In this document: one piece after another, positions 36,986 to 53,004 of the stretch
Numbering within the stretch: position 1 is the stretch's first letter
Layout: every line of letters starts with the position of its first letter
NCBI GenBank assembly: GCA_034521575.1
Contig: JAXHMJ010000003.1
Location: 186,001 to 250,000, forward strand
Direction of reading: 5' to 3'
From: a candidate division KSB1 bacterium
Lineage (GTDB): Bacteria; Zhuqueibacterota; Zhuqueibacteria; Residuimicrobiales; Krinioviventaceae
Length of the DNA stretch: 64,000 nucleotides
Translations under genes and position numbers: made by a program
Notes under the pieces: model-generated
Seen by the model: only the letters and a program-made list of their open reading frames with translations
What the model was told of the DNA's origin: nothing
Databases searched by the model: none

Positions 36986-38203
36986 TTACCAGGCCTCCGC
37001 ATTTGGATTTGTTTCCTGAATATACAAAATTTCTGTTTTGTAGGTGGTTCGATCATATCCGGTTGATTTGAAAAGAAACTCAAAGAAATCGGGTAGACGA
37101 CCAAACCGCCGGATCATAATCTGGTTCAGGGTTTTGATGCTTTCCGGATCAGTCAGATACTTTACGATTCCTGTGGTGCCGGTTTCGTGGAAACTGGCCA
37201 GAATAATGATTGTGTTACCGCCGGGGCCGGGGATTTTTCTCACGCTGCCGTAATCGATGTGATATCTCTGCGGATCTGCATTATCCGTAAAATTGAGCGT
37301 GTCCGATCCGGTGTTCAATACGATCCGGTTCGGAAATACATGATAGGAAAGTTCAGAATGATTGAATGTAACATCCAGAATTCCCAATGTATGAAAAGAA
37401 CCGATAAAAAGAATATCATAGCTGCGCAAATCTTCCGCTGTCAGCAGAGAAGCCGGTTTCAGTTTATAAGAGAGTTGGGACAAAATGCTGTTGTTCAATT
37501 GAATAAACGGCCAGACACTGTTTTGCGGAAACAGATAATAGGGCAGAGGTCTCAAGTCATCCGGGTTGGATCGGGTCTGCAGAAAAGCCTCAAAGTCTTT
37601 TAACGAATTGATATTGTCTTTGCGGAGGATGGTTCGGGAGGCGGGGTCGGTGCCGTCTCTGACGTAAAAAAAATGATCGCCAAGAGCGACCAGGCGGGGG
37701 AAATCATGGTCTGTGATTGAATTCCACAACGGCGTAAAAACCATTTTTTTGCGGTTGCTCTGCAAAGTGCCTTGCGGTATTACAGAGAGATGCAGGTAAA
37801 GAATATATGCAAACAGCGCAAGAATAAAAAAGCATTTTTTGTGGGTTTTGATAAAGAAAAAGAGCCGGTTGATCTCGCTGTTCTGAGTGTGTACAAATCG
37901 GACCTGATAATGACCTTTGGGAATGACGAGTTTAACCGGATCCTTTTTACCCGAGTTGCTGTAATACTGTTCCAGTTTTTTTCGCAGCTTGTAAACAGAT
38001 ACGCGGACGCTCGTATCCTCAGCCGGATTAAAGGCTTTTTTGTGAAACAGATGTTCAGCGATGGTTTGTTCTTTGATCGTTTTTTTGTCAAGGCAGGCTT
38101 TAACCAGAAATTGCAGGAGGTTTTGATGCAGCGAGGAGTGTTTAAATTCCTGACTGGTCAATATCTTTTGCAGAATTTTATATTTGGTCTTTTCGTCAAT
38201 CAT
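36986..38203 (-). CDS. Membrane-anchored winged-helix regulator (ToxR-like architecture), paralogue 1
   Basis: The N-terminal ~105 residues form a winged helix of the kind seen in adenylate-cyclase-associated and acidobacterial membrane regulators: LLQFLVKACLDK, IAEHLFHKKAFNPAEDTSVRVSVYKLRKKLEQYY, and LVIPKGHYQVRF. One membrane helix follows (CFFILALFAYILYLHLSVI). The ~265-residue outer domain has VALGDHFFYV, YDILFIGSFHTLGIL, HIDYGSVRKIPGPGGNTIII and KSTGYDRTTYKTEILY. The 405-residue paralogue at 51787-53004 shares all these blocks. It is transcribed away from the GH9 gene and so probably controls it in response to an extracytoplasmic signal. The family name and ligand are unknown. Confidence 0.75.
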   Translation of the reverse strand: MIDEKTKYKILQKILTSQEFKHSSLHQNLLQFLVKACLDKKTIKEQTIAEHLFHKKAFNPAEDTSVRVSVYKLRKKLEQYYSNSGKKDPVKLVIPKGHYQVRFVHTQNSEINRLFFFIKTHKKCFFILALFAYILYLHLSVIPQGTLQSNRKKMVFTPLWNSITDHDFPRLVALGDHFFYVRDGTDPASRTILRKDNINSLKDFEAFLQTRSNPDDLRPLPYYLFPQNSVWPFIQLNNSILSQLSYKLKPASLLTAEDLRSYDILFIGSFHTLGILDVTFNHSELSYHVFPNRIVLNTGSDTLNFTDNADPQRYHIDYGSVRKIPGPGGNTIIILASFHETGTTGIVKYLTDPESIKTLNQIMIRRFGRLPDFFEFLFKSTGYDRTTYKTEILYIQETNPNAEAW

Positions 38204-40965: not shown

Positions 40966-42417
40966 TCAAAAAGACGGGGCTTTCGGCAGTTCAAAACTGA
41001 ACCGGGAGCCCTGTCCGATTGTACTCTGAACATGAATTCTGCTGTTGTGCGCTTCCAGAATATGTTTGACAATAGCCAGGCCCAATCCGGTTCCTCCGAC
41101 CTCTCTCGACCGTTCTTTGTCCACACGATAAAAGCGTTCAAAGATGCGTGACAAATGCTGCTGTTCGATGCCGTTCCCTGTATCGGATACGTATATTTCC
41201 ACGATATTGTTTTTTACCGTGTATCCCAGTTCTACCTTGCCGCCCGGGACATTGTATTTGATGGCATTTTGCACAAGATTCTGGATAACCTGATTCAGAC
41301 GGTTGATGTCGCCGTAGATGCGAATGTGGTCGTTGTGACTGTTGGACATGACGATTTTGATATTATTTTCTTCAGCCACTTCGCGTAAACCGTAGGCGTG
41401 TTTTTTCAACCAGTTATGGACATCAAAATGATCCATGGTCATCTTCATTTCACCGGATTCAATGCGTGAAATGTCAATAAGGTCGCTGAGCAAATTGTTC
41501 AGCCGGTCGGCCTGACGGTAAGCTTTTTTGATGAATTTTTTCTGCTGTTTCCGCGGCGCATTGGGATTCTGCATCAGGGTTTCCAGGTACCCCTGAACGG
41601 TAAATATGGGGGTGCGGAGTTCGTGCGAAACGTTGCCGAGAAAATCGCTGCGCATTTTCTGCAGTTTTTTCATCTCGATCAAGTCCTGTCGCAGTTTGTC
41701 CATCATCTCATTTAAAAGCTCTGCAAGCTCAGCCAATTCGTCATTGCCTTCGTGGTGGAATCTTGCGTTCCAGTCGCCTTGTTTTATTTTTTCAGCCACC
41801 ACAGACAGTTTGTGAATCGGATACGTCAAATGGCTTGCTGTGATGTAGCTGATAATCACAACGACAATCAATGCCATGCCGCCGGCCGCCATGATTTTCC
41901 AGCGTACGGTTTCCAGCACTTTTTGAATATCCTCCATGGGAATGGCAAGTCTGAGGTAATGTATATTGTTCGATGATCCGCTGTGCGAATAGATTTTTGC
42001 GGCATAGTACATGAATTGATGTATCGTGGCGCTGGTGCGTTCATCCTGCCCCCGCTTGAACTGACGCGCTTCTCTGATCTCGGGCCGGTTGATGTGATTT
42101 TCAATATACGGAAGAGAGTCCAGTGGAACCTGGGAATCGAAAATGACTGTTCCGACGGAATCGATCAGGGTCAGGCGCTTGTTTGATTTTTTGGCATACC
42201 GCGTGAAAAAGGTATATGTTGAATCACTGGAAAAATCATGTAACCGTTCTGATAAAATAAAATCGAGTTCATGTAACTGTGTGCTCAGTTGTTCAAAAAT
42301 TCGCGCTTTGTAATACTTTTGAATTTCGAAAGAAGAGATAATACTGGAAATAAAGATGGATATACACAGCAAAGAGATGATGAGTAGAATTATTTTTTTT
42401 CGAAGCGACAATCGCAT
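40966..42417 (-). CDS. phoR: Phosphate-type sensor histidine kinase PhoR-like
   Basis: Two membrane helices (IILLIISLLCISIFISSII and GGMALIVVVIISYITAS) flank a ~150-residue periplasmic sensor, followed by a HAMP linker. The H-box is NVSHELRTPIFTVQGYLE, the N-box NLVQNAIKYNVPGG, then DTGNGIE and GGTGLGLAIVKHI. The start at 42417 lies 4 nt after the response-regulator stop, so the pair is translated in order phoB-phoR. The frame opens upstream at 42537 inside phoB, without support. The adjacent PiT gene makes a phosphate role likely; the periplasmic sensor differs from the short E. coli PhoR. Confidence 0.85.
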   Translation of the reverse strand: MRLSLRKKIILLIISLLCISIFISSIISSFEIQKYYKARIFEQLSTQLHELDFILSERLHDFSSDSTYTFFTRYAKKSNKRLTLIDSVGTVIFDSQVPLDSLPYIENHINRPEIREARQFKRGQDERTSATIHQFMYYAAKIYSHSGSSNNIHYLRLAIPMEDIQKVLETVRWKIMAAGGMALIVVVIISYITASHLTYPIHKLSVVAEKIKQGDWNARFHHEGNDELAELAELLNEMMDKLRQDLIEMKKLQKMRSDFLGNVSHELRTPIFTVQGYLETLMQNPNAPRKQQKKFIKKAYRQADRLNNLLSDLIDISRIESGEMKMTMDHFDVHNWLKKHAYGLREVAEENNIKIVMSNSHNDHIRIYGDINRLNQVIQNLVQNAIKYNVPGGKVELGYTVKNNIVEIYVSDTGNGIEQQHLSRIFERFYRVDKERSREVGGTGLGLAIVKHILEAHNSRIHVQSTIGQGSRFSFELPKAPSF

Positions 42418-42421
42418 GTAC

Positions 42422-43153
42422 TTAGAGTTCTTTCTTGAATCGGTATCCGACACCCTTGATTGTCTCGATATGGTCCATAAAGGGTTTTTCCAGTTTTTCA
42501 CGAATTTTACGAATATGTACATCAATGGTACGATCAATCACAACCACATTATCATCCCAAAGTTCATCTAAAAGTATCTTGCGGGTGATGACCCGGCCCG
42601 GTCGCTGGGCCAGAAAGGTCAGGATATCAAACTCTTTTTTGGTCAGCATGATTTCTTTGTCTTGCGCACTGACTTTATAGCTTTCAGGATCAATGTATAG
42701 AGCGCCGAATTGCAGTTGTTTGTTCAGGTTCTTTTCAAGAGGAGCTGAATGTTTCCGTAAGGTGCTTTTTATCCTCGCTAAAAGTTTCCGGATGGCAATC
42801 GGTTTGACCACATAATCATCCGCTCCCAGCTCCAGCCCGACAATTTCATCAATTTCATTATCTTTGGCGGTTAAAAAGATCACCGGGATTTGATTGGTAT
42901 TGGTTTTTTTGCGGAGTTCGCGCAATACTTCCCAACCGTCCTTTTGCGGCAGCATGATGTCCAGTAAAATCAAATCCGGTTTGGCATTTTCTGCTTTCTT
43001 TAAAGCCTCATCTCCGTCCTTGGCTTTTATAATGACATAACCCTCTGCCTCTAAATTAAATTCCAAAAGGTCCCGGATGTCTTTTTCATCATCTACAATC
43101 AATATTTTTTTGACATGGTTAAAGTCCAATATAGTATTTGATTTTTGTCTCAA
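42422..43153 (-). CDS. phoB: OmpR/PhoB-family response regulator
   Basis: The receiver domain has ILIVDDEKDIRDLLEF, the phosphoacceptor in DLILLDIMLPQKDG, the FLTAK Thr/Ala, and YVVKPIAIRKLLARI with the conserved Lys. The OmpR winged helix has LTKKEFDILTFLAQRPGRVITRKILLDELW and DVHIRKIREKLEKP, ending with KGVGYRF. Divergent transcription from the PiT transporter and the phased TTAACA repeats between them support a Pho regulon role with autoregulation. Confidence 0.88.
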   Translation of the reverse strand: MRQKSNTILDFNHVKKILIVDDEKDIRDLLEFNLEAEGYVIIKAKDGDEALKKAENAKPDLILLDIMLPQKDGWEVLRELRKKTNTNQIPVIFLTAKDNEIDEIVGLELGADDYVVKPIAIRKLLARIKSTLRKHSAPLEKNLNKQLQFGALYIDPESYKVSAQDKEIMLTKKEFDILTFLAQRPGRVITRKILLDELWDDNVVVIDRTIDVHIRKIREKLEKPFMDHIETIKGVGYRFKKEL

Positions 43154-43220: not shown

Positions 43221-43248
43221 TTAACAAAAAGTTAATAATAGATTAACA
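43221..43248 (+). promoter_or_regulatory. Candidate Pho box: three TTAACA-type repeats at 11-bp spacing
   Basis: TTAACA (43221), TTAATA (43232) and TTAACA (43243) are spaced exactly one helical turn apart, matching the Bacillus PhoP-type box TT(A/T/C)A(C/T)A with 5-nt gaps. They lie between the divergent phoB and pitA genes; a plausible -10 TATACA is at 43267-43272 for the transporter. Confidence 0.65.
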
Positions 43249-43334
43249 TAACAATAAGACGCTGTTTATACATTAAAAACTATGGTCGTAAAATAGTGCC
43301 ATCTGTTTGCTAAAAAGAAAGGAATACAGAACTC

Positions 43335-45545
43335 ATGGAGCTCTATCTGTTTGTTGTTGTTGTGCTCTTTGGTCTTGCCATTTCGGACTTGATAGTGGGT
43401 GTCAGTAATGACGCTGTTAATTTTATAAGCTCTTCTATTGGATGTCAGGCGGCGTCGAAAAGAACCATTATGATCGTCGCAGCGATTGGCATGCTGCTGG
43501 GTGTATTGTTTTCCAGCGGTATGATGGAAGTTGCCAGAAAGGGGATTTTTCACCCACAATACTTTGTGATGAGCGACCTGCTGATCATCTTTCTCGCTGT
43601 TATGATTGCCGATATCATTTTACTGGATTTATATAGTACATTTGGACTCCCTACGTCTACAACTGTATCGATTGTTTTTGAACTCTTGGGAGCTGCTGTT
43701 GCGGTTTCCTCACTCAAGATCATCAGAGCCGGCGATAGTTTGTCAAGGCTGGGTGACTATATCAATACAGACAAAGCGCTGGCCATCATCAGCGGTATTC
43801 TTTTATCGGTGGTGGTTGCGTTCATCGCCGGAGCCATCATTCAGTCGATTATTCGCACCGTCTTTTCCTTTGGATATGAAAAAAATATCAAAAAATGGGG
43901 CGCACTCTGGGGTGGTGTGGCATTAACGACGATTACCTATTTTATTTTGATCAAGGGCGCAAAAGGCTCAACGTTACTGACCGATGATGTGGTGGCATGG
44001 ATAAAAGCAAACACGATGCTGATTATGGGGGGCAGTCTTGCGTTCTGGACCATCATCTTTCAGCTATTGACCTGGTTTACCCGAATAAACATATTAAAGA
44101 TTATCGTGCTGGTGGCAACCGGATCTCTGGCCATGGCATTCGCCGCCAATGATCTGGTCAATTTTATCGGGGTTCCGATTGCGGGTTTTCATGCGTTTCG
44201 GATTGCCGCATCCAATCCGCTTAACCCATTGGAAACGCCCATGGACACGATGGCGGGTGAGGTTCAAACGGCCAACTGGATGCTCTTAATTGCCGGTGTT
44301 ATCATGGTGGTTACTCTGGTGCGCTCGAGAAAAGCACGCAGTGTGACCAAGACCCAGGTTGGATTGAGCCGACAGGATACGGAGCATAATGAACGTTTTC
44401 AGGCAACTCCTTTATCGCGAGTTGTTGTCCGGATGGCCTGCAATGTTACTCAATTTTTCAAATCCATCACACCGATCAGTATCCAGAATAAAGTTAATGA
44501 ACGGTTTGATGAAAGTCAGTCTCCTTTGAACCAGATTAAATTTAAAGACCGCCCGGCCTTTGATCTTTTGCGCGCCAGCGTCGAACTTGTGGTTGCCAGC
44601 GCGCTGATCTCGTTTGCAACCTCTCTCAAGCTTCCGCTTTCCACCACGTATGTGACATTTATGGTGGCTATGGGCGCATCATTGTCTGATCGTGCATGGG
44701 GGCGCGAAAGCGCGGTCTACCGCATCACCGGAGTGTTTACAGTGATCGGCGGATGGTTTCTGACTGCGATTATTGCATTTACTATGGCAGGTGTTTTTGC
44801 CACTCTGATTTTTCAATTCCGTATTTTTGCAATGATCCTTCTGGTGCTTTTTGCCGTTTACATGGTCTATCGTACGCATCTGATCCATAAAAACCGAGAT
44901 GCTGAAGAATATATGAAAAAGGATAAAACCGATGAATTGCCTCCGGTTCTGAGTTGTGTGCATAAATGCGCCAATTATTTTGAACGGGTACGGATCGTTA
45001 TTACTCTTTCTATTGAAGGTCTGATAAAGGAAGACCGGAAACAGGTAAAAGCCGGTAAGGAAGAAGCAAAGACACTAAAAAATGATGGAAAAATATTGTT
45101 GCGCGAATTCATGACGATGACGCAAGATCCTGAAAGTATTGATGAGATCAGTCCGCGGACGATTGCTGCTATTCGCGGTGTGGGCCGGCATGTGGATGAA
45201 ATCGCACAAGTCAGCGCCAATCATGTTTTGAATCAACATCGCGGACTGGACAAGGATCAAAAAGAAGAATTGGCTGATATTCTCAAGGAACTGGATAAAT
45301 TTATCCGTGAAAGCAATGAGATTTTTAAAGATGAAGACCGGGGAAAAATCAGCAAAGCGATTACACGGGGACAGGAAATCAGTGAAGCGATCCACAAAAA
45401 GAGCCGACAGCAAATCAAGCGCATTAAAAAGGGTAAAACAAAAACCCGCATTACACTGTTATTTATAAATATATTGTCTTTTTGCAATGAAGTTGTCAAC
45501 GAGTATGTTGAAGTGCTCAAGGGGTACAACGAAATGTTTGACTAG
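43335..45545 (+). CDS. pitA: PiT-family inorganic phosphate transporter with C-terminal PhoU-like domain
   Basis: The two PiT repeats are visible: GVSNDAVNFISSSIGCQAAS near the N-terminus and FAANDLVNFIGVPIAGFHAF later, with GLPTSTTVSIVFELLGAAV and KLPLSTTYVTFMVAMGAS. The first ~520 residues are membrane-embedded, with a long cytoplasmic loop. Residues ~540-736 form an all-helical PhoU-like tail with basic coiled segments (DRKQVKAGKEEAKTLKNDGK), making it much longer (736) than E. coli PitA. AAAGGA precedes the ATG. Phosphate import under control of the adjacent PhoB-PhoR is the natural reading. Confidence 0.87.
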   Translation: MELYLFVVVVLFGLAISDLIVGVSNDAVNFISSSIGCQAASKRTIMIVAAIGMLLGVLFSSGMMEVARKGIFHPQYFVMSDLLIIFLAVMIADIILLDLYSTFGLPTSTTVSIVFELLGAAVAVSSLKIIRAGDSLSRLGDYINTDKALAIISGILLSVVVAFIAGAIIQSIIRTVFSFGYEKNIKKWGALWGGVALTTITYFILIKGAKGSTLLTDDVVAWIKANTMLIMGGSLAFWTIIFQLLTWFTRINILKIIVLVATGSLAMAFAANDLVNFIGVPIAGFHAFRIAASNPLNPLETPMDTMAGEVQTANWMLLIAGVIMVVTLVRSRKARSVTKTQVGLSRQDTEHNERFQATPLSRVVVRMACNVTQFFKSITPISIQNKVNERFDESQSPLNQIKFKDRPAFDLLRASVELVVASALISFATSLKLPLSTTYVTFMVAMGASLSDRAWGRESAVYRITGVFTVIGGWFLTAIIAFTMAGVFATLIFQFRIFAMILLVLFAVYMVYRTHLIHKNRDAEEYMKKDKTDELPPVLSCVHKCANYFERVRIVITLSIEGLIKEDRKQVKAGKEEAKTLKNDGKILLREFMTMTQDPESIDEISPRTIAAIRGVGRHVDEIAQVSANHVLNQHRGLDKDQKEELADILKELDKFIRESNEIFKDEDRGKISKAITRGQEISEAIHKKSRQQIKRIKKGKTKTRITLLFINILSFCNEVVNEYVEVLKGYNEMFD

Positions 45546-45553
45546 GCCTTGTT

Positions 45554-45580
45554 GCGGGAGTGGAGCCTTTCCACTCCCGC
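45554..45580 (+). terminator. Stem-loop after the phosphate transporter
   Basis: GCGGGAGTGG / CCACTCCCGC forms a 10-bp perfect stem with a 7-nt loop, 9 bp after the transporter stop. No T tract follows, so it may attenuate rather than stop transcription into the TonB receptor gene. Confidence 0.55.
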
Positions 45581-45585
45581 CCTCC

Positions 45586-45613
45586 TTAATAAACTCTTAA
45601 CTTTGGTTTTATC
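45586..45613 (+). promoter_or_regulatory. Second, weaker phased Pho-box-like array
   Basis: TTAATA (45586), TTAACT (45597) and TTTATC (45608) repeat at 11-bp spacing, with TATATT at 45634-45639 as a possible -10 placed as in the pitA promoter. The third unit is poor, so this is suggestive only. It would put the TonB receptor gene under PhoB. Confidence 0.4.
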
Positions 45614-45683
45614 CTTTAATAAAACGGTCTGACTATATTTAAATATCTTTAGCAGAAACTTTAACCAACAATGAGGTATTTAA

Positions 45684-48542
45684 ATGTACAAGACAGTATT
45701 GTATTGTATCGTTTTGCTTTTTCTTTTCTTTGCAAATTTATTATTCGCACAAACAGGAACAATAACCGGTAAAATTGTCGACTCGGAAACGGGTGAAGCG
45801 CTGATCGGGGTCAACGTCATTCTGCAGGGCACGATGATCGGGGATGCCACGGATATGGACGGCGAGTATCGGATCAAAAATGCACCGGTCGGTGATTATA
45901 CCGTCATGGGTTCCTATATGGGGTACAGCCGGATCACCATTCAGGATGTTGCGATCCGGACCAATCAGGTTGTAACGCTCAATTTTACAATGACCATGGA
46001 ATCGCTGCAGGGTGAAGAAGTGGTGGTAACCGCCAAAGCGGTGCGCAACACAGAAGCAGCCTTGTTAAAAGATCGGCAAAAAGCCAAAACCATCAGTGAT
46101 GCCATCAGCGCGGAAATGATCTCGGAAAGCGGCAGCGGCAATGCGGCCGAAGCCATGAAACAGATCACCGGCGCTTCGGTGGTTGACGGCAAAAAGGTGT
46201 TTGTGCGCGGACTGGGTGACCGTTATACCAGCACACAGCTGAACGGCGCTGAAATTCCCAGCGCAGATCCTTACAGCCGTTCCGGGTCTATTGACATTAT
46301 TCCTTCTAATTTGATTGATAATATTGTAACCGTTAAAAGTTTTACACCCGACAAACCCGGGAATTTTTCCGGCGGAACGGTCGATATACAGACCAAAGAT
46401 TTTCCCGAAGATTTATCCCTTTCTTTTTCAGCATCCAGTTCTTTTAATTCGCAAACAACATTTAATGATAATATACTCGCATTAACCAACGGCAGTTCGC
46501 TGAACTGGCTCGGATTTGCGGATAAGGGAATGGATATACCGGATTTTGTCGGTAAAGATCTGACACAGATCGATCCGATTGCAGCGGGTAAAAATGCTGA
46601 ACAAGCTCAGTTTATTGAAAACTATACAGATGCTTTTAATCATTCCATGGCCCCGACCAAAGGTTCGGCGCCTCTGAACCAAAGCTATTCATTTTCCGTC
46701 GGAAATCAGGTTGAGTTTCTCGGCCGTCCCTTGGGTTTTCTGGCAAGCGCTACTTATAGCAACAAGCATAAAAGTTATGATGATGGAGTGTATGCCCGCT
46801 ATGCGCTCAAAGCCCTGTCCGAGAATGCGTCCGGTCTGGAAAATATCTTTCATTTGAGTGATCAAAAAACCCAGGCCGAAGTTTTGTGGGGCGTCACATT
46901 AAAGTCCTCTTACAAATTGAATAAAAATAATAAACTGAGTTTTACCGGACTTTACAACCAAAATGGTGTGAGTACCGCGCGAAAGTTATCCGGCCCGTTT
47001 CCCTATGATCTAAATGATGATGAAGTTTATCAGGTTTCCACGCAGCAGTATAACGAACGCAGTCTGCATTCTTATCAATTGGACGGCGATCATAAATTGC
47101 AGGCGTTAGACGCTCAGGTCAGCTGGAAGGCATCATATGGACGTTCCACCCAGGATGAGCCGGATTTGCGTTATTTTACCAGCTACATCAACGGTCAGGG
47201 CACCTATGGCACCAAAACCAATATCCCCCAGGAACGCTTTTATCGCTATCTTGACGAAGATCGCTATGAAGGCAACCTGGATATAACAAAATCACTGAGC
47301 TTTTGGAACGGATTAAAAGGCAGTGTTAAATGGGGTGGCGCTTATGCGTTTAAAACCCGTGATTTTGATGAACGCCGTTTCGTCTACGAGCCCAACAGTG
47401 ATATCGGCGTTGAGCTGCGGAATGCGGGCGGTGATATTAACGAGTTGTTTTCCGATGAGAATCTCGGTTTGACCGGCGCACGTGTGGCGCCGAACGGCAA
47501 TGTCTATAACGAATTCGGTATCTATATCACCGAAACCGCGCAAATTTCCAGCAATTATACCGGTGATCAGTACATTAATGCCGGATATGCCATGCTTGAT
47601 ATGCCGTTATCCATCAAGCTCCGGTTGGTTGGCGGGGTGAGATATGAAACCACCGAAATGCAAGTGATCAGTGAAGACCCGGAACAACCCAAAGGCACAG
47701 TTTCGACACAGGACCTGCTGCCGTCCGCAAATTTGATTTACACCCTTTCTGATAATATGAATATCCGGTTTGCCTATGGAAAAACCCTGGCTCGACCGTC
47801 ATTCCGCGAAATTTCAAACTTTGCTTCTTATGATTTCAAGGAAGGTGATAAATACATTGGAAATCCTGAATTGAAACGCACTTTGGTGGATAATTTTGAC
47901 CTGCGCTGGGAATGGTTCAGCCGCCCCGGCGAACTGTATGCCGTCAGCGTTTTTTCCAAATCCTTTACCAATCCCATTGAAATAGTGATCAAAAATAACA
48001 ATTACTGGATCACCTGGCAGAATGTGGATCAGGCGACCACATTTGGTGTCGAATTTGAAGCGCGCAAACGTCTTGATATTTTACACAGCGCCCTGTCTAA
48101 TTTCATGGCCGGCGGTAATTTGTCCCTGATTTATTCCGAGGTGGATATCAGTGACAGGGAACTGGAGATTATTCGCGCCACCAATCCTGAAGCAGAGGCA
48201 TCGCGACCGTTCCAGGGTCAATCGCCTTATCTCTTGAATCTAAATATCAGTTATGATAATCCGCAAAACGGTCTGGCCACCAGCCTTTACTATAATATTT
48301 TCGGTGAACGATTGGCTGCAATCGGTAAAGGCGGCACCCCCGATATCTATGAACAACCCGCCGCCATGCTGAATTATTCGCTGTCAAAGCGGATCGGGAA
48401 ACATCTGTATTTTAAATTTGCCGTTAATAATATACTGGATGCAAACGAAAAGAAAATGCATGAATTTAAAGAAAAAGACTATATAACCACGCGTTATCAA
48501 AGAGGACGGACGTTTTCACTCGGTTTAAAATACAATCTCTAA
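45684..48542 (+). CDS. TonB-dependent outer-membrane receptor
   Basis: A signal peptide (VLYCIVLLFLFFANLLFAQ) precedes a carboxypeptidase-regulatory-like beta domain (ITGKIVDSETGEALIGVNV ... YMGYSRITIQDV). A TonB-box-like segment GEEVVVTAKAV follows, then the plug with SGSGNAAEAMKQITGASVVDGKKVFVRGLGDRYTST and LPSANLIYTLSDNMNIRFAYGKTLARPSFREI in the barrel. The chain ends with a typical beta-strand, RTFSLGLKYNL. At 952 residues it is normal for the family. It lies between the phosphate transporter and a secreted beta-helix protein on the same strand. No SusD partner is present. Uptake of a phosphorus-containing ligand is inferred from location only. Confidence 0.88.
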   Translation: MYKTVLYCIVLLFLFFANLLFAQTGTITGKIVDSETGEALIGVNVILQGTMIGDATDMDGEYRIKNAPVGDYTVMGSYMGYSRITIQDVAIRTNQVVTLNFTMTMESLQGEEVVVTAKAVRNTEAALLKDRQKAKTISDAISAEMISESGSGNAAEAMKQITGASVVDGKKVFVRGLGDRYTSTQLNGAEIPSADPYSRSGSIDIIPSNLIDNIVTVKSFTPDKPGNFSGGTVDIQTKDFPEDLSLSFSASSSFNSQTTFNDNILALTNGSSLNWLGFADKGMDIPDFVGKDLTQIDPIAAGKNAEQAQFIENYTDAFNHSMAPTKGSAPLNQSYSFSVGNQVEFLGRPLGFLASATYSNKHKSYDDGVYARYALKALSENASGLENIFHLSDQKTQAEVLWGVTLKSSYKLNKNNKLSFTGLYNQNGVSTARKLSGPFPYDLNDDEVYQVSTQQYNERSLHSYQLDGDHKLQALDAQVSWKASYGRSTQDEPDLRYFTSYINGQGTYGTKTNIPQERFYRYLDEDRYEGNLDITKSLSFWNGLKGSVKWGGAYAFKTRDFDERRFVYEPNSDIGVELRNAGGDINELFSDENLGLTGARVAPNGNVYNEFGIYITETAQISSNYTGDQYINAGYAMLDMPLSIKLRLVGGVRYETTEMQVISEDPEQPKGTVSTQDLLPSANLIYTLSDNMNIRFAYGKTLARPSFREISNFASYDFKEGDKYIGNPELKRTLVDNFDLRWEWFSRPGELYAVSVFSKSFTNPIEIVIKNNNYWITWQNVDQATTFGVEFEARKRLDILHSALSNFMAGGNLSLIYSEVDISDRELEIIRATNPEAEASRPFQGQSPYLLNLNISYDNPQNGLATSLYYNIFGERLAAIGKGGTPDIYEQPAAMLNYSLSKRIGKHLYFKFAVNNILDANEKKMHEFKEKDYITTRYQRGRTFSLGLKYNL

Positions 48543-48590
48543 TTCTTTCTAACTCACTAAATCTAAAAAAAGCAAAGAGGAGTAACGCAC

Positions 48591-51560
48591 ATGAAATTGA
48601 AACTAACTTGTCTTTTAATCTTGACTGGAATCCTGCTGTCCGGTTTTGCCGCGATAGCGGATACCAGCGAATTCTTTGATCAGGTGAACTACAAAGGCGC
48701 TTTTGGTTCATCCATCTGGATGAAGGGATGGACCGCGCTGGACGAATATGATTTCCTGGTTGAAGACAAAGTATCCGCTGGTCAGGTTACAGTAACGGAT
48801 GAAAGCATTAATGCCGGTGATGTTGTGTACTGGACCGCTGATAATACTTATGTATTAGACGGTCTGGTTTATGTTGAAGCCGGCGCTGTTTTGAATATTG
48901 AAGCCGGAACGGTGATCAAAGCCAAAGTCGGTAGTAGTGAAAATGCCAGCGCACTGATTATTTCAAAAGGCGCAAAAATCTTTGCTGAAGGTACGGCTGC
49001 AAAACCGATTATTTTCACAGCTGAAAGCGATGATGTTACAGATCCCTATGATGTGACACCTGATGTCCGCGGACAATGGGGTGGTTTGATTATTCTGGGT
49101 CATGCTATAATCAATGAAGCCGGTGGTGTCGATTATGTTGAAGGTATCGCTGAAGAATCCGAACGGACACAGTTCGGTGGTAATGACGATGACGACAATT
49201 CCGGTGTACTGCGCTACGTATCAATCCGGCACGGCGGTACCGAACTGGCTCCCGGTGATGAAATCAATGGTTTGACTCTGGGCGCTGTCGGTCGTGGAAC
49301 CACAATCGAATACGTTGAAGTGTTTGCCAACAAAGACGATGGTTTTGAGTGGTTTGGCGGTACCGTGAACTGTAAACATCTCATCGCTGCCTATTGCGGT
49401 GATGACGGTTTTGATCATGATGAAGGGTTGCGCAATAAAATGCAGTTTCTGTTCACCCTGCAGGATTCCGCCGCTGCCGGGCGTTCCGGTGAACATGACG
49501 GCGGTCACGATCCTGAAGACGGCGAACCGTTTGCTTATCCGGTTATTTACAACGCAACTTATGTTGGCCCGGGAATGGAATCTTCCCAGACCGATGTTGC
49601 TTTGAAACTGCGTGATAACTGGGGCGGTGAGTATGTCAACTCTATTTTCGGAGATCGTTCCGGCAAAGCTCTGGATATTGAACAGACAGATAATTACGCG
49701 CAGGACAGCAAAAAGCGTCTGGATGATGGAGAAATTGTCATCAAAAACAACCTGTGGTTCAATTTTGCTCCGGGAATGACCGCCGATTCTCTTGGTGTGA
49801 ATCCCTGGGATGTAGCGGTTTTTGAAAATGACGCGAATATGAATGAACTGCTGGATGCAAGTCCCCTGGCAAGTATCAGCCGTGACCAGGACAATGGCTT
49901 GGATCCGCGTCCGGTTCAGGACGGCCCGGCTTATCAGAATCTTGCTGAAATCCCGCAGGATGATTTCTTTGAACAAGTGAATTACAAAGGCGCATTCGGT
50001 TCAACCAACTGGATGAAAGGATGGACCGCGCTGGATGAGTATGATATGCTCGTAGAAGATAAAGTTGCCGCCAATCAAGTAACCGTAACAGACGAAAGCA
50101 TTAACGCTGGTGATATGGTGTACTGGACGGCTGACAATACGTATGTATTGGACGGTCTGGTTTACGTTGAATCCGGCGCTATGTTAAATATTGAAGCCGG
50201 TACAATCGTAAAAGCCAGGTCCGGCAGCAGTGAGAATACCAGCGCATTGATCGTCTCCAAAGGCGGAAAGATCTATGCCGAAGGTACCGGTGTGAATCCC
50301 ATTATTTTCACCGCTGAAAGCGATGATGTGACTGATCCTTACGACGTGACACCTGATGTGCGCGGGCAGTGGGGCGGTTTAATCGTTCTGGGTCATGCTG
50401 TCATCAACGAAGCCGGCGGCATTGACTATGTTGAAGGTATTGCCGAAGAATCCGATCGGACTCAGTTCGGTGGGAATGATGATCATGATAATTCAGGTGT
50501 GCTGCGCTATGTCTCTATTCGTCACGCGGGAACCGAGCTGGCTCCCGGTGATGAAATCAACGGCCTGACCCTGGGCGCTGTGGGTAATGGCACCACCATT
50601 GATCATATCGAAGTTTTCGCCAATAAAGACGACGGTTTTGAATGGTTCGGCGGTAATGTCAATTGTAAATACCTGATCGCTGCGTACTGCGGTGATGACG
50701 GTTTTGATCATGATGAAGGTATCCGCAGCAAAATGCAGTTCCTGTTCACACTGCAGGATTCCGCCGCTGCCGGGCGTGCCGGTGAGCATGACGGCGGTCA
50801 TGATCCTGAAGACGGCGAACCCTTTGCTTATCCGGTGATTTACAATGCCAGCTATTTTGGTCCGGGCATGGAATCTTCCCAGACTGATGTTGCTTTGAAG
50901 CTGCGCGATAACTGGGGCGGTGAGTACAAAAACTCGATCTTTGGAGATCGTTCCGGTAAAGCCCTGGACATTGAACAGACAGATAATTACGAACAAGACA
51001 GCAAGAAACGCCTGGATGACGGACAGATTGTAATCATGAACAACCTGTGGTTCAATTTTGCACCGGGAATGACAGCCGATTCTCTCGGTGTGAATCCCTG
51101 GGATGTGGCTGTATTTGACGATGCTTCCAACATGAATGAACTATTGACCACCACCCCGGTTGTCAGCATCAGCCGTGATCAGGACAAGGGTCTGGACCCG
51201 CGTCCGGTACAGGATGGACCGGCTTATCAGAACCTGGCCGGCTATCCGATGATGGAAACTGGTGTTGAGGTGGTGAATCGCAGTGAAACCCTGCCGGTCG
51301 AAAATCAGCTGGTGCAGAACTATCCCAACCCGTTCAACCCGGTTACAACGATCCAGTATGATCTGAATGCTGCATCTCGGGTTAAACTGACCGTTTTCAA
51401 TACACGGGGTCAGCAGGTTGCTGAACTGGTGAACCACCTGCAGCAGGCCGGTTCTTATACGGTGACCTGGAATGCCTCTGATATGCCCTCCGGTGTTTAT
51501 CTGTACACACTGGAAACAGGCAGCCGGATCATAACCCGAAAAATGATGCTCATTAAATAA
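48591..51560 (+). CDS. Secreted tandem-duplicated parallel beta-helix protein with Por sorting domain
   Basis: A signal peptide (LTCLLILTGILLSGFAAIA) precedes two ~430-residue units (about residues 28-455 and 457-885) that are nearly identical in protein and DNA. Each starts FFxQVNYKGAFGSxxWMKGW and runs through NTYVLDGLVYVE, ALIxSKGxKIxAEGT, RGQWGGLIxLGHA, FGGNDD, LRYVSIRHxGTELAPGDEI and NKDDGFEWFGG, which look like rungs of a right-handed beta-helix rich in Asp/Gly. The C-terminal ~90 residues are a sorting domain (NYPNPFNPVTTIQYDL ... GVYLYTLETG ... MMLIK), so the protein is exported and probably surface-attached. GAGG precedes the ATG. It follows the TonB receptor by 48 bp, likely one operon. 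Function unknown. Confidence 0.82.
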   Translation: MKLKLTCLLILTGILLSGFAAIADTSEFFDQVNYKGAFGSSIWMKGWTALDEYDFLVEDKVSAGQVTVTDESINAGDVVYWTADNTYVLDGLVYVEAGAVLNIEAGTVIKAKVGSSENASALIISKGAKIFAEGTAAKPIIFTAESDDVTDPYDVTPDVRGQWGGLIILGHAIINEAGGVDYVEGIAEESERTQFGGNDDDDNSGVLRYVSIRHGGTELAPGDEINGLTLGAVGRGTTIEYVEVFANKDDGFEWFGGTVNCKHLIAAYCGDDGFDHDEGLRNKMQFLFTLQDSAAAGRSGEHDGGHDPEDGEPFAYPVIYNATYVGPGMESSQTDVALKLRDNWGGEYVNSIFGDRSGKALDIEQTDNYAQDSKKRLDDGEIVIKNNLWFNFAPGMTADSLGVNPWDVAVFENDANMNELLDASPLASISRDQDNGLDPRPVQDGPAYQNLAEIPQDDFFEQVNYKGAFGSTNWMKGWTALDEYDMLVEDKVAANQVTVTDESINAGDMVYWTADNTYVLDGLVYVESGAMLNIEAGTIVKARSGSSENTSALIVSKGGKIYAEGTGVNPIIFTAESDDVTDPYDVTPDVRGQWGGLIVLGHAVINEAGGIDYVEGIAEESDRTQFGGNDDHDNSGVLRYVSIRHAGTELAPGDEINGLTLGAVGNGTTIDHIEVFANKDDGFEWFGGNVNCKYLIAAYCGDDGFDHDEGIRSKMQFLFTLQDSAAAGRAGEHDGGHDPEDGEPFAYPVIYNASYFGPGMESSQTDVALKLRDNWGGEYKNSIFGDRSGKALDIEQTDNYEQDSKKRLDDGQIVIMNNLWFNFAPGMTADSLGVNPWDVAVFDDASNMNELLTTTPVVSISRDQDKGLDPRPVQDGPAYQNLAGYPMMETGVEVVNRSETLPVENQLVQNYPNPFNPVTTIQYDLNAASRVKLTVFNTRGQQVAELVNHLQQAGSYTVTWNASDMPSGVYLYTLETGSRIITRKMMLIK

Positions 51561-51577
51561 ACGATTGCGATACACCC

Positions 51578-51681
51578 CGCCTGGTGCTTTGCACTGGGCG
51601 GAACTATATTTCCGCCAGGCCCTGCAAATGTTCAGGTTAAGGTTTCTGCTAAAACCACCTCGTATTCGCAGGGCCTTTTTT
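51578..51681 (+). terminator. Structured 3' end of the beta-helix gene
   Basis: A long-range stem AGGCCCTGC (51617-51625) / GCAGGGCCT (51668-51676) is followed by a T6 tract. Two smaller hairpins lie before it (CGCC..GTGC / GCAC..GGCG at 51578-51600 and GGCGGAA / TTTCCGCC around 51597-51616). Confidence 0.65.
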
Positions 51682-51786: not shown

Positions 51787-53004
51787 TTACCAAAAGTTTG
51801 ATGTTTTTTCAATTTCTCCCGAATACAGTATTTCAGAATTAAAAGCCGTCCTTGAAAAACCGGAGACTTTGAGAAGGACATCAAAATAAAGGGGAAAAGA
51901 ATTGCCGTCAAAAGACCGCGCGATATCAGTGAGAGATTCAATCGTTGTGAATGCATTGGATGCACCGGCCATGCCGGTCTCGAAAAAGCTGATAAACAGG
52001 ATCAGTGTATTTTGATTGGGCCCGGGTATTTTTCTGATCAGACAATAGTCAATATGCTCTTCATCCGGTTCTCCGTTTAGATTCAGGGTTTGCAGCGAGT
52101 CACCCAGAGAAAGGGTCACATGAGTCGAGCTTGTCTGCCCCAACTCATAGTTGACCAGAATGTCTTTAAGCGCCTGTTCCAGTATGTACAGGTTCCGAAA
52201 CGTGCCAAAGAAGATGATATCATTGGTCAGTATGTCTGAAGTTTTCAAGTTTGACGAGTTTTGGAACATGATGTTGGATTTAAAAGAGAAAAACGGCAGA
52301 ATGTTGTCCAGAGGCAGGATACTGATCATCGGCACAAACGAATAATTGGTTTGGCCCTGGTAGCGGTTTTGCAGTTCCGGATGTTCAGAAATATAGTGTT
52401 CAAAATCATAGCCGTTATTAATACTGTGTTTACGCAGGATTGTACTGTCGTTCTTTGTGACAAAAAAGAAATCGTCTCCCAAAACCATAAAGAGTGGTGA
52501 ATCTGATTGGGTAAAATCCGACCATACCGGATGATTCAGCAGGCGCATATGATCTTTGCCGACTGATTGCCGCAATTGTCTGAAATGTATTTCCAATACA
52601 ATGATGGACAACGCAAGTACTGTTATAACCCCATAGAGGATGTAATGAGATTTCAGTACGCTTTTTATTTTCACTCCTTTTGAAGCCGGGATAAACAATA
52701 CATTGTGGTGACCTTTGGGAATGGTCAACCTGATCTTTTCTTTACTCCCCTCGGTTCGATAATACCGGTCCAGTTTTTTTCGCAGATTGCTGATATAAAC
52801 GCGAACAGTTGAATCTTCCGCAGGATTAAAGTCAGGGGATTTGCCGAAAATTTCAACAGCGATATTGTATTCTTTGGGGGGTTCATCGGTTAATGATGCT
52901 TCAACCAAAGCGGTCAGCAATCGTTTATAGGTATTGGAGCCGCAAAACTCTGAACTTTCCAAAAGCCGATTTAATGCCTGTTTTTTATCGTTTATAGAGA
53001 TCAT
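51787..53004 (-). CDS. Membrane-anchored winged-helix regulator (ToxR-like architecture), paralogue 2
   Basis: The layout equals paralogue 1 at 36986-38203, with the same length (405). The winged helix has LLTALVEASLTDE, IAVEIFGKSPDFNPAEDSTVRVYISNLRKKLDRYY and LTIPKGHHNVLF; a membrane helix follows (YGVITVLALSIIVLEI). The outer domain has MVLGDDFFFV, DIIFFGTFRNLYIL, HIDYCLIRKIPGPNQNTLIL and KVSGFSRTAFNSEILY. Cys appears where paralogue 1 has Gly in HIDY(C/G). It is divergent from the sulfatase-GH94 cluster and so is its likely regulator. The DNA-binding family is clear; ligand and mechanism are not. Confidence 0.75.
   Translation of the reverse strand: MISINDKKQALNRLLESSEFCGSNTYKRLLTALVEASLTDEPPKEYNIAVEIFGKSPDFNPAEDSTVRVYISNLRKKLDRYYRTEGSKEKIRLTIPKGHHNVLFIPASKGVKIKSVLKSHYILYGVITVLALSIIVLEIHFRQLRQSVGKDHMRLLNHPVWSDFTQSDSPLFMVLGDDFFFVTKNDSTILRKHSINNGYDFEHYISEHPELQNRYQGQTNYSFVPMISILPLDNILPFFSFKSNIMFQNSSNLKTSDILTNDIIFFGTFRNLYILEQALKDILVNYELGQTSSTHVTLSLGDSLQTLNLNGEPDEEHIDYCLIRKIPGPNQNTLILFISFFETGMAGASNAFTTIESLTDIARSFDGNSFPLYFDVLLKVSGFSRTAFNSEILYSGEIEKTSNFW

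Follow-up and report, generated by a model that had tools for sequence, protein, structure and literature searches.

A TonB-Dependent Receptor and a Duplicated β-Helix Protein Encoded behind a Candidate Pho-Box Promoter in a KSB1 Bacterium

Organization of the Locus

The window analyzed here, a stretch of 64,000 nt from contig JAXHMJ010000003.1 (positions 186,001 to 250,000) in the 5.26-Mb genome of a candidate division KSB1 bacterium, carries phoR and phoB on the minus strand, followed by pitA, a TonB-dependent receptor (TBDT) gene and the gene for a 989-aa protein on the plus strand. The sensor histidine kinase (40966..42537) is of the PhoR/PnpS type, with HAMP, HisKA and HATPase_c domains, and its best NCBIfam matches are PnpS (6e-87) and PhoR (1.8e-80), both under the curated cut-offs. 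The gene for the PhoB-type response regulator (42422..43153) is divergent from pitA, and its product also matches NCBIfam PhoB best (1.2e-72), with 243.9 bits (cut-off 296). The PitA-type phosphate transporter (43335..45545; PHO4, PF01384, 2.1e-30) is the only PHO4 protein of this genome. Downstream of pitA is a GC-rich hairpin (45554..45580, plus strand) with an 11-bp stem and no T-run, which was read from the sequence and is absent from the terminator scan results. The receptor gene (45684..48542) follows, and then, after a gap of 49 bp, the gene for a two-unit β-helix surface protein (48591..51560). A hairpin flagged 3' of the latter (51577..51601, plus strand) is the probable end of the transcription unit, the scan itself being weak (13 sites against 8.9 expected). 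The order is that given in a preliminary description of this DNA, where a receptor and a sorting-domain protein were said to follow the phosphate transporter.

The whole island, from phoBR to the β-helix gene, is bracketed by genes for two homologous 405-aa proteins (36986-38203 and 51787-53004, both minus strand); neither has an NCBIfam match, and the one that was searched against Pfam has none there. A single PstS-like protein, scoring just under the family cut-off, is encoded on another contig of the genome beside an M28 peptidase (L171:6038-8499), apart from the receptor–β-helix pair, and no pst permease genes are obvious among its neighbors.

Candidate Pho-Box Promoters

Two phased arrays of Pho-type boxes were found on the plus strand. 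The first (43221..43274), 5' of pitA, consists of TTAACA, TTAATA and TTAACA in 11 bp steps, with a -10 element TACATT. The second (45586..45639) precedes the receptor and consists of TTAATA (45586), TTAACT (45597) and TTTATC (45608), with TATATT at 45634. In both cases the third box and the -10 begin 26 bp apart (43243 to 43269 and 45608 to 45634), so that the -10 placement noted in the preliminary description is exact. In dinucleotide shuffles, any three-box array arose in 6 of 20,000 replicates of the 300 bp upstream region, and in 10 of 20,000 replicates of the 138-bp intergenic stretch. With zero mismatches, the array plus -10 occurs at only two sites in 5.26 Mb, pitA and the receptor, and because the pattern was partly shaped on these very sites, the comparative evidence weighs more.

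Upstream of 50 homologous TBDT genes, pairs of TTAAY boxes are separated by 11 bp in 20 cases and by 22 bp in 11, with 0–2 cases at each other spacing, while dinucleotide shuffles gave an average of 0.46 and a maximum of 3. Three-box arrays are present in seven sequences upstream of homologous receptors (0.03 expected), and a -10 of the form TA..TT follows the third box at a start-to-start distance of exactly 26 bp in eight promoters, namely the two in the window and those of L051, L074, L091, L098, L100 and L104. When the presence of an array was defined by a fixed score threshold (≥24), it was found before the first gene of 20/46 homologous pairs and before 1/43 control TBDTs (Fisher 2e-6); among 411 long control ORFs, about 1% have an upstream region that reaches the threshold. 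The box also matches the TTTAACA core of the motif measured by DAP-seq for PhoP of Riemerella (PMC9603813). An upstream Pho-box array, as belongs to members of a Pho regulon, is therefore present at the receptor gene, and by these sequence comparisons it is not a product of chance and recurs before homologous pairs.

The sole array-positive control TBDT precedes a phytase gene, an arrangement like that of the low-Pi-induced TBDT–phytase pair Fjoh_1367/1368 of Flavobacterium johnsoniae (PMC8115612). At L164:9044-12917 (G011:C27), a TonB receptor gene with a strong TTAACA array is followed by a phytase gene (PF02333, 1.9e-45); no PF02333 phytase is encoded in the genome of the window.

In the same genome as the window, four sites match the complete pattern with one mismatch. 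One of them, a Pho-type promoter (G000:C5:1020588-1020641, minus strand), precedes a PAP2 phosphatase–GT4 gene pair (L177:949-1554), and the best NCBIfam match of the GT4 enzyme is a phosphatidylglycerol glycosyltransferase. Lipid glycosyltransferase genes are familiar from the remodeling of lipids during phosphate starvation, and this is perhaps the role of the PAP2–GT4 pair. The phoBR cluster of F. johnsoniae likewise includes a glycosyltransferase (PMC8115612). An array was also looked for before the M28–PstS-like pair of the genome, and none was found. A scan for consensus promoters was set aside, as its yield (18 found, 16.3 expected) was no better than chance. In the Verrucomicrobia loci L075-L083 (e.g., L079), GTGAC/GTTAC boxes set 11 bp apart lie 5' of the receptor, possibly representing a lineage-specific Pho box; a further peak in box spacing is seen there at 31 bp.

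The TonB-Dependent Receptor

The receptor, of the CC_0171/Fjoh_0545 kind, has the domains of a TonB-dependent transporter: a CarboxypepD_reg-like N-terminal domain (PF13715), a plug (PF07715) and a barrel (PF00593). It scores 241 bits against TIGR01782 (cut-off 310). Its AlphaFold2 model has a pLDDT of 84, and the nearest PDB structures are siderophore and heme TBDTs (TM ~0.5, 12% identity). Searching the PDB by sequence gave one weak match (E 0.0099), to a SusC homologue and restricted to its N-terminal domain. Identity as a SusC/RagA (SusCD) receptor was rejected, the score for TIGR04056 being 51 bits against a cut-off of 368 and the partner a β-helix rather than a SusD-like protein.

The Two-Unit β-Helix Protein

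The 989-aa protein consists of a signal peptide without a lipobox, two units (48669..49946 and 49959..51236) that are 88% identical as protein and 83% as DNA, and a type A sorting domain of the type IX secretion system (T9SS) at 51321..51548 (PF18962, 1.9e-10; TIGR04183, 5.1e-12). A signal peptide together with a C-terminal sorting domain is what defines T9SS cargo, and the tail indicates that the protein is displayed at the surface. About 150 T9SS-like tails are encoded in the genome, and these account for the further matches to the whole protein, which is otherwise the sole member of its family there. The model of one unit (AlphaFold2, 60 homologues) is a right-handed β-helix with a pLDDT of 93, so the duplicated β-helix of the preliminary description, which had advised predicting the structure of one unit, is confirmed at the level of a confident model. 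Structural neighbors of this model are pectin methylesterases, pectate lyases, epimerases and glycosidases, all at weak significance (E ~1e-3, TM ~0.3–0.4). A sequence search of the PDB returned no relatives of the protein, and no model in Pfam or NCBIfam covers the unit.

Nine acidic residues (D224, D225, E228, D246, D247, D250, D252, E276 and D278, unit numbering) are kept in 98–100% of 59 units. The motif DDGFE/DDGFD repeats at 22 residues, the length of one coil, and so stacking of these residues is expected; a cluster of all nine is suggested by their spacing and by secondary structure, and such near-invariant carboxylates suggest a metal-bridged site, in which metal would be bound between them.

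The two units of one protein are often closer to each other than to units from other genomes, indicating that the doubling arose, or was homogenized, repeatedly. A motif FF..V.YKGAF..NW..GWT heads each helix in the window (48669-51236) and trails the helix in most single-unit homologues (L059, L071, L074), a shift that amounts to a circular permutation and is probably the mark of tandem duplication. Anchoring varies by lineage, with a T9SS tail in Calditrichota/Ignavibacteria-type genomes and a lipobox in most members from Bacteroidota and Proteobacteria; neither was found in those from Verrucomicrobia.

Gene Neighborhoods of Homologous Pairs

A receptor gene adjoins the β-helix gene in 57/63 loci, and the other six end at contig ends. 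The receptor usually comes first, while the β-helix gene leads in most Bacteroidota loci and on plasmids of Sphingomonas, Indioceanicola, Alteromonas, Pseudoalteromonas and Hymenobacter. Phosphate genes (phoBR as a pair, pst, phoU or pit) were present at 22/49 pair loci spanning 9 kb or more and at 0/38 control loci, the controls being other receptors of related genomes and of the window's own (Fisher 4e-7); some pair loci come from related genomes, near-duplicates were dropped where noticed, stretch lengths are unequal and the two samples of pair loci partly overlap. An E. coli PstS probe by itself missed divergent PstS proteins, and those found in the flank census were included in the recount. 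Co-occurrence with phosphate genes had been named in the preliminary description as a check of its proposal, and the opposite result, homologues across many genomes with no such genes nearby, did not emerge.

Of 117 proteins encoded directly beside the pairs, nine are response regulators, PhoB-like ones among them, and nine belong to the PstS family, these two groups being the commonest; M28 peptidases follow with five, two are phosphate-selective porins, and siderophore or iron genes are absent from the commonest families. At about half of the homologous pair loci the stretch seen lacks a phosphate gene, and the plasmid pairs of Parabacteroides, Hymenobacter and Aureibacter have no Pho genes within 12 kb, so that by position the family is not exclusively linked to phosphate.

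On plasmids of Sphingomonas and Indioceanicola the order is β-helix, TBDT, gsp genes, the same as in the elpS-cc0171-T2SS cluster of Caulobacter crescentus. These homologues align to the window unit at 34–35% with the acidic motif largely retained; the Sphingomonas example (34.7% identity, 9e-31) lies 5' of the TBDT gene and gspC-J. An Alteromonas plasmid carries phoB–phoR–pstS, a 2OG-Fe(II) oxygenase gene and the β-helix–TBDT pair with its own ExbB, ExbD and TonB. A dedicated DUF3450-ExbB-ExbD-TonB set accompanies the pair on plasmids of both Alteromonas and Pseudoalteromonas (L123:9343-20123, L124:3906-16164), and the Alteromonas β-helix protein has three units. A gene pair for an M28 metallopeptidase and a PstS-like protein recurs beside the receptor–β-helix pair (L055, L090, L102, L103), and the gene directly 3' of the β-helix gene at L051:7198-8838 encodes a phosphodiester glycosidase (NAGPA) that also has golvesin and T9SS domains.

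Predicted Function and Alternative Explanations

The receptor and β-helix genes probably form one PhoB-controlled transcription unit for a surface binder and a receptor that imports a phosphorus-bearing ligand. As judged from the conserved promoters, PhoR/PhoB would at low phosphate activate pitA and the receptor–β-helix genes through the TTAACA-type boxes, phased at 11 bp and placed 26 bp from the -10. The β-helix protein would then be exported by the T9SS and retained at the surface. We infer that the doubled helix binds the ligand there, probably through metal ions on the nine carboxylates of adjacent coils, and hands it in a physical complex to the receptor, which would pump it into the periplasm, from where phosphate could cross via PitA. 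The promoter and partnership steps are well supported by sequence; gene order, the array, near-universal pairing, the predicted fold and residue conservation are observed features. A Pho-regulated outer-membrane system had been proposed in the preliminary description, and the conserved phased array, the fixed -10, synteny with phosphate genes and the production of homologues under Pi starvation (PMC8115612, PMC2996285) argue in its favor; the further proposal there, of a phosphorus-rich ligand collected by the β-helix, is plausible.

The main rival makes the β-helix protein a glycosidase- or phosphodiesterase-like enzyme that cuts a phosphorus-containing polymer at the surface, with the receptor importing the fragments. 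The fold neighbors listed above are enzymes, if weakly matched, and the F. johnsoniae proteins FI and FII were modeled as polygalacturonase-like (PMC8115612). In one relative the phosphodiester glycosidase gene lies downstream, and the 22-residue spacing between N222-D224 and D246-D247 may resemble the start of the GH28 polygalacturonase motif series (NTD, DD, GHG, RIK); inspection of the translation, however, shows that GHG and RIK are missing from the unit, which is thus not of GH28 type. Nine near-invariant carboxylates are also more than a β-helix hydrolase typically needs. Purified ElpS, the Caulobacter relative, was without phosphatase activity (PMC2996285), and on balance an enzymatic role looks unlikely.

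Less probable again is that the pair serves the TonB-dependent uptake of a metal or siderophore, with iron or calcium, for example, on the carboxylate cluster, and with phosphate co-regulation reflecting the coupled availability of metal and phosphate. The acidic cluster could hold a metal, and the closest solved receptors are those for siderophores and heme, but TBDTs fold alike whatever their ligand (here TM ~0.5 at 12% identity). The commonest flanking genes do not concern iron, and in F. johnsoniae FII, its TBDT and related genes are reported to be low-Pi responsive and tightly repressed under Fe and N limitation (PMC8115612). It is harder still to see the pair as an importer of polysaccharide or peptide for carbon that lies beside phoBR-pitA by accident. 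Nearby ORFs in the window do include a sulfatase and others that seem carbohydrate-active, and many pair loci lack a phosphate gene; against this very improbable explanation stand the conserved Pho array with its fixed -10, the enrichment of phosphate genes relative to control TBDT loci and the Pi-specific induction of homologues.

A binder and receptor for a phosphorus-bearing ligand is the preferred reading here. A bolder version, which we offer tentatively and would not presume, is that TonB-powered outer-membrane import of phosphate or phosphoesters employs a β-helix with a stacked multi-carboxylate metal center, capturing its ligand as a metal complex, in at least Calditrichota/KSB1, Ignavibacteria, Bacteroidota, Verrucomicrobia and Proteobacteria, with delivery by T9SS tail, as a lipoprotein or in association with a T2SS. 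The comparisons tie the receptor and β-helix protein into one conserved Pho-promoted unit across phyla and single out nine residues as targets for mutation. They bear on the passage of organic or scarce phosphorus through the outer membrane of starving bacteria, a question that can be tested directly in laboratory strains.

Comparison with Known Systems

The pair had been put forward as one with no described function, which is not right, since ElpS/CC_0171 as well as FI and FII with their TBDTs have been described as systems of Pi starvation. ElpS (CC_0170) is a surface lipoprotein made by C. crescentus under phosphate starvation, and its gene adjoins the TBDT gene cc0171 and T2SS genes; overexpression raises extracellular phosphatase activity, and two results speak against the present model, namely that deletion of elpS gave no phosphatase phenotype and that cc0171 was reported to be constitutive (PMC2996285). 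The resemblance lies in a surface protein with an adjacent TBDT gene, whereas ElpS is a lipoprotein with T2SS-aided release, and kinship with the window protein is traced through the Sphingomonas and Indioceanicola homologues in the same gene order.

In F. johnsoniae, phoR, phoB, a TBDT gene (Fjoh_0545) and that for lipoprotein FII (Fjoh_0546) form PUSIV (Fjoh_0543-0546), while PUSIII contains FI (Fjoh_3856) and its TBDT (Fjoh_3857); Pi depletion induces FI, FII, their TBDTs and PhoB, and FI is the top exoprotein of phosphate-starved cells, at 18.7% (PMC8115612). FII, annotated as pectin-lyase-like and induced by Pi depletion, belongs to a cluster of phoR, phoB, TBDT and β-helix-type protein like that of the window. 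The Flavobacterium proteins are outer-membrane lipoproteins, however, whereas the window protein has T9SS export and a doubled helix, and pitA lies between phoBR and the pair. FI–FIII share 31–36% identity with ElpS (PMC8115612), and their kinship with the window protein is drawn from this published similarity and the shared context.

Looser parallels are the vitamin B12 transporter BtuB-BtuG, a TBDT with a dedicated ligand-binding partner in the form of a surface lipoprotein lid (PMC10404256), and the SusCD-like PusCD proteins of phosphate utilization, a Pi-regulated TBDT with a surface binding partner (PMC8115612). The former is an analogy only, as partner, ligand and regulation are unrelated, and the PusCD partner is SusD-like where that of the window is a β-helix and its receptor not a SusC.

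The window protein is homologous to members in elpS-cc0171-T2SS or phoBR contexts and has an adjacent TBDT gene, as in the ElpS/FI-FIII family, in which induction of production by phosphate starvation is published for ElpS and FI–FIII. Lipoprotein anchoring, possibly not essential to that family, is lacking, and with a T9SS tail in place of the lipobox the protein is best called a family variant. The pair would work in the manner of Caulobacter ElpS/CC_0171 and Flavobacterium FII/Fjoh_0545, pairs that have each been studied in phosphate-starved cells, and is of a kind already described; what is new here is the T9SS-exported, duplicated-helix form of the Calditrichota/KSB1 type.
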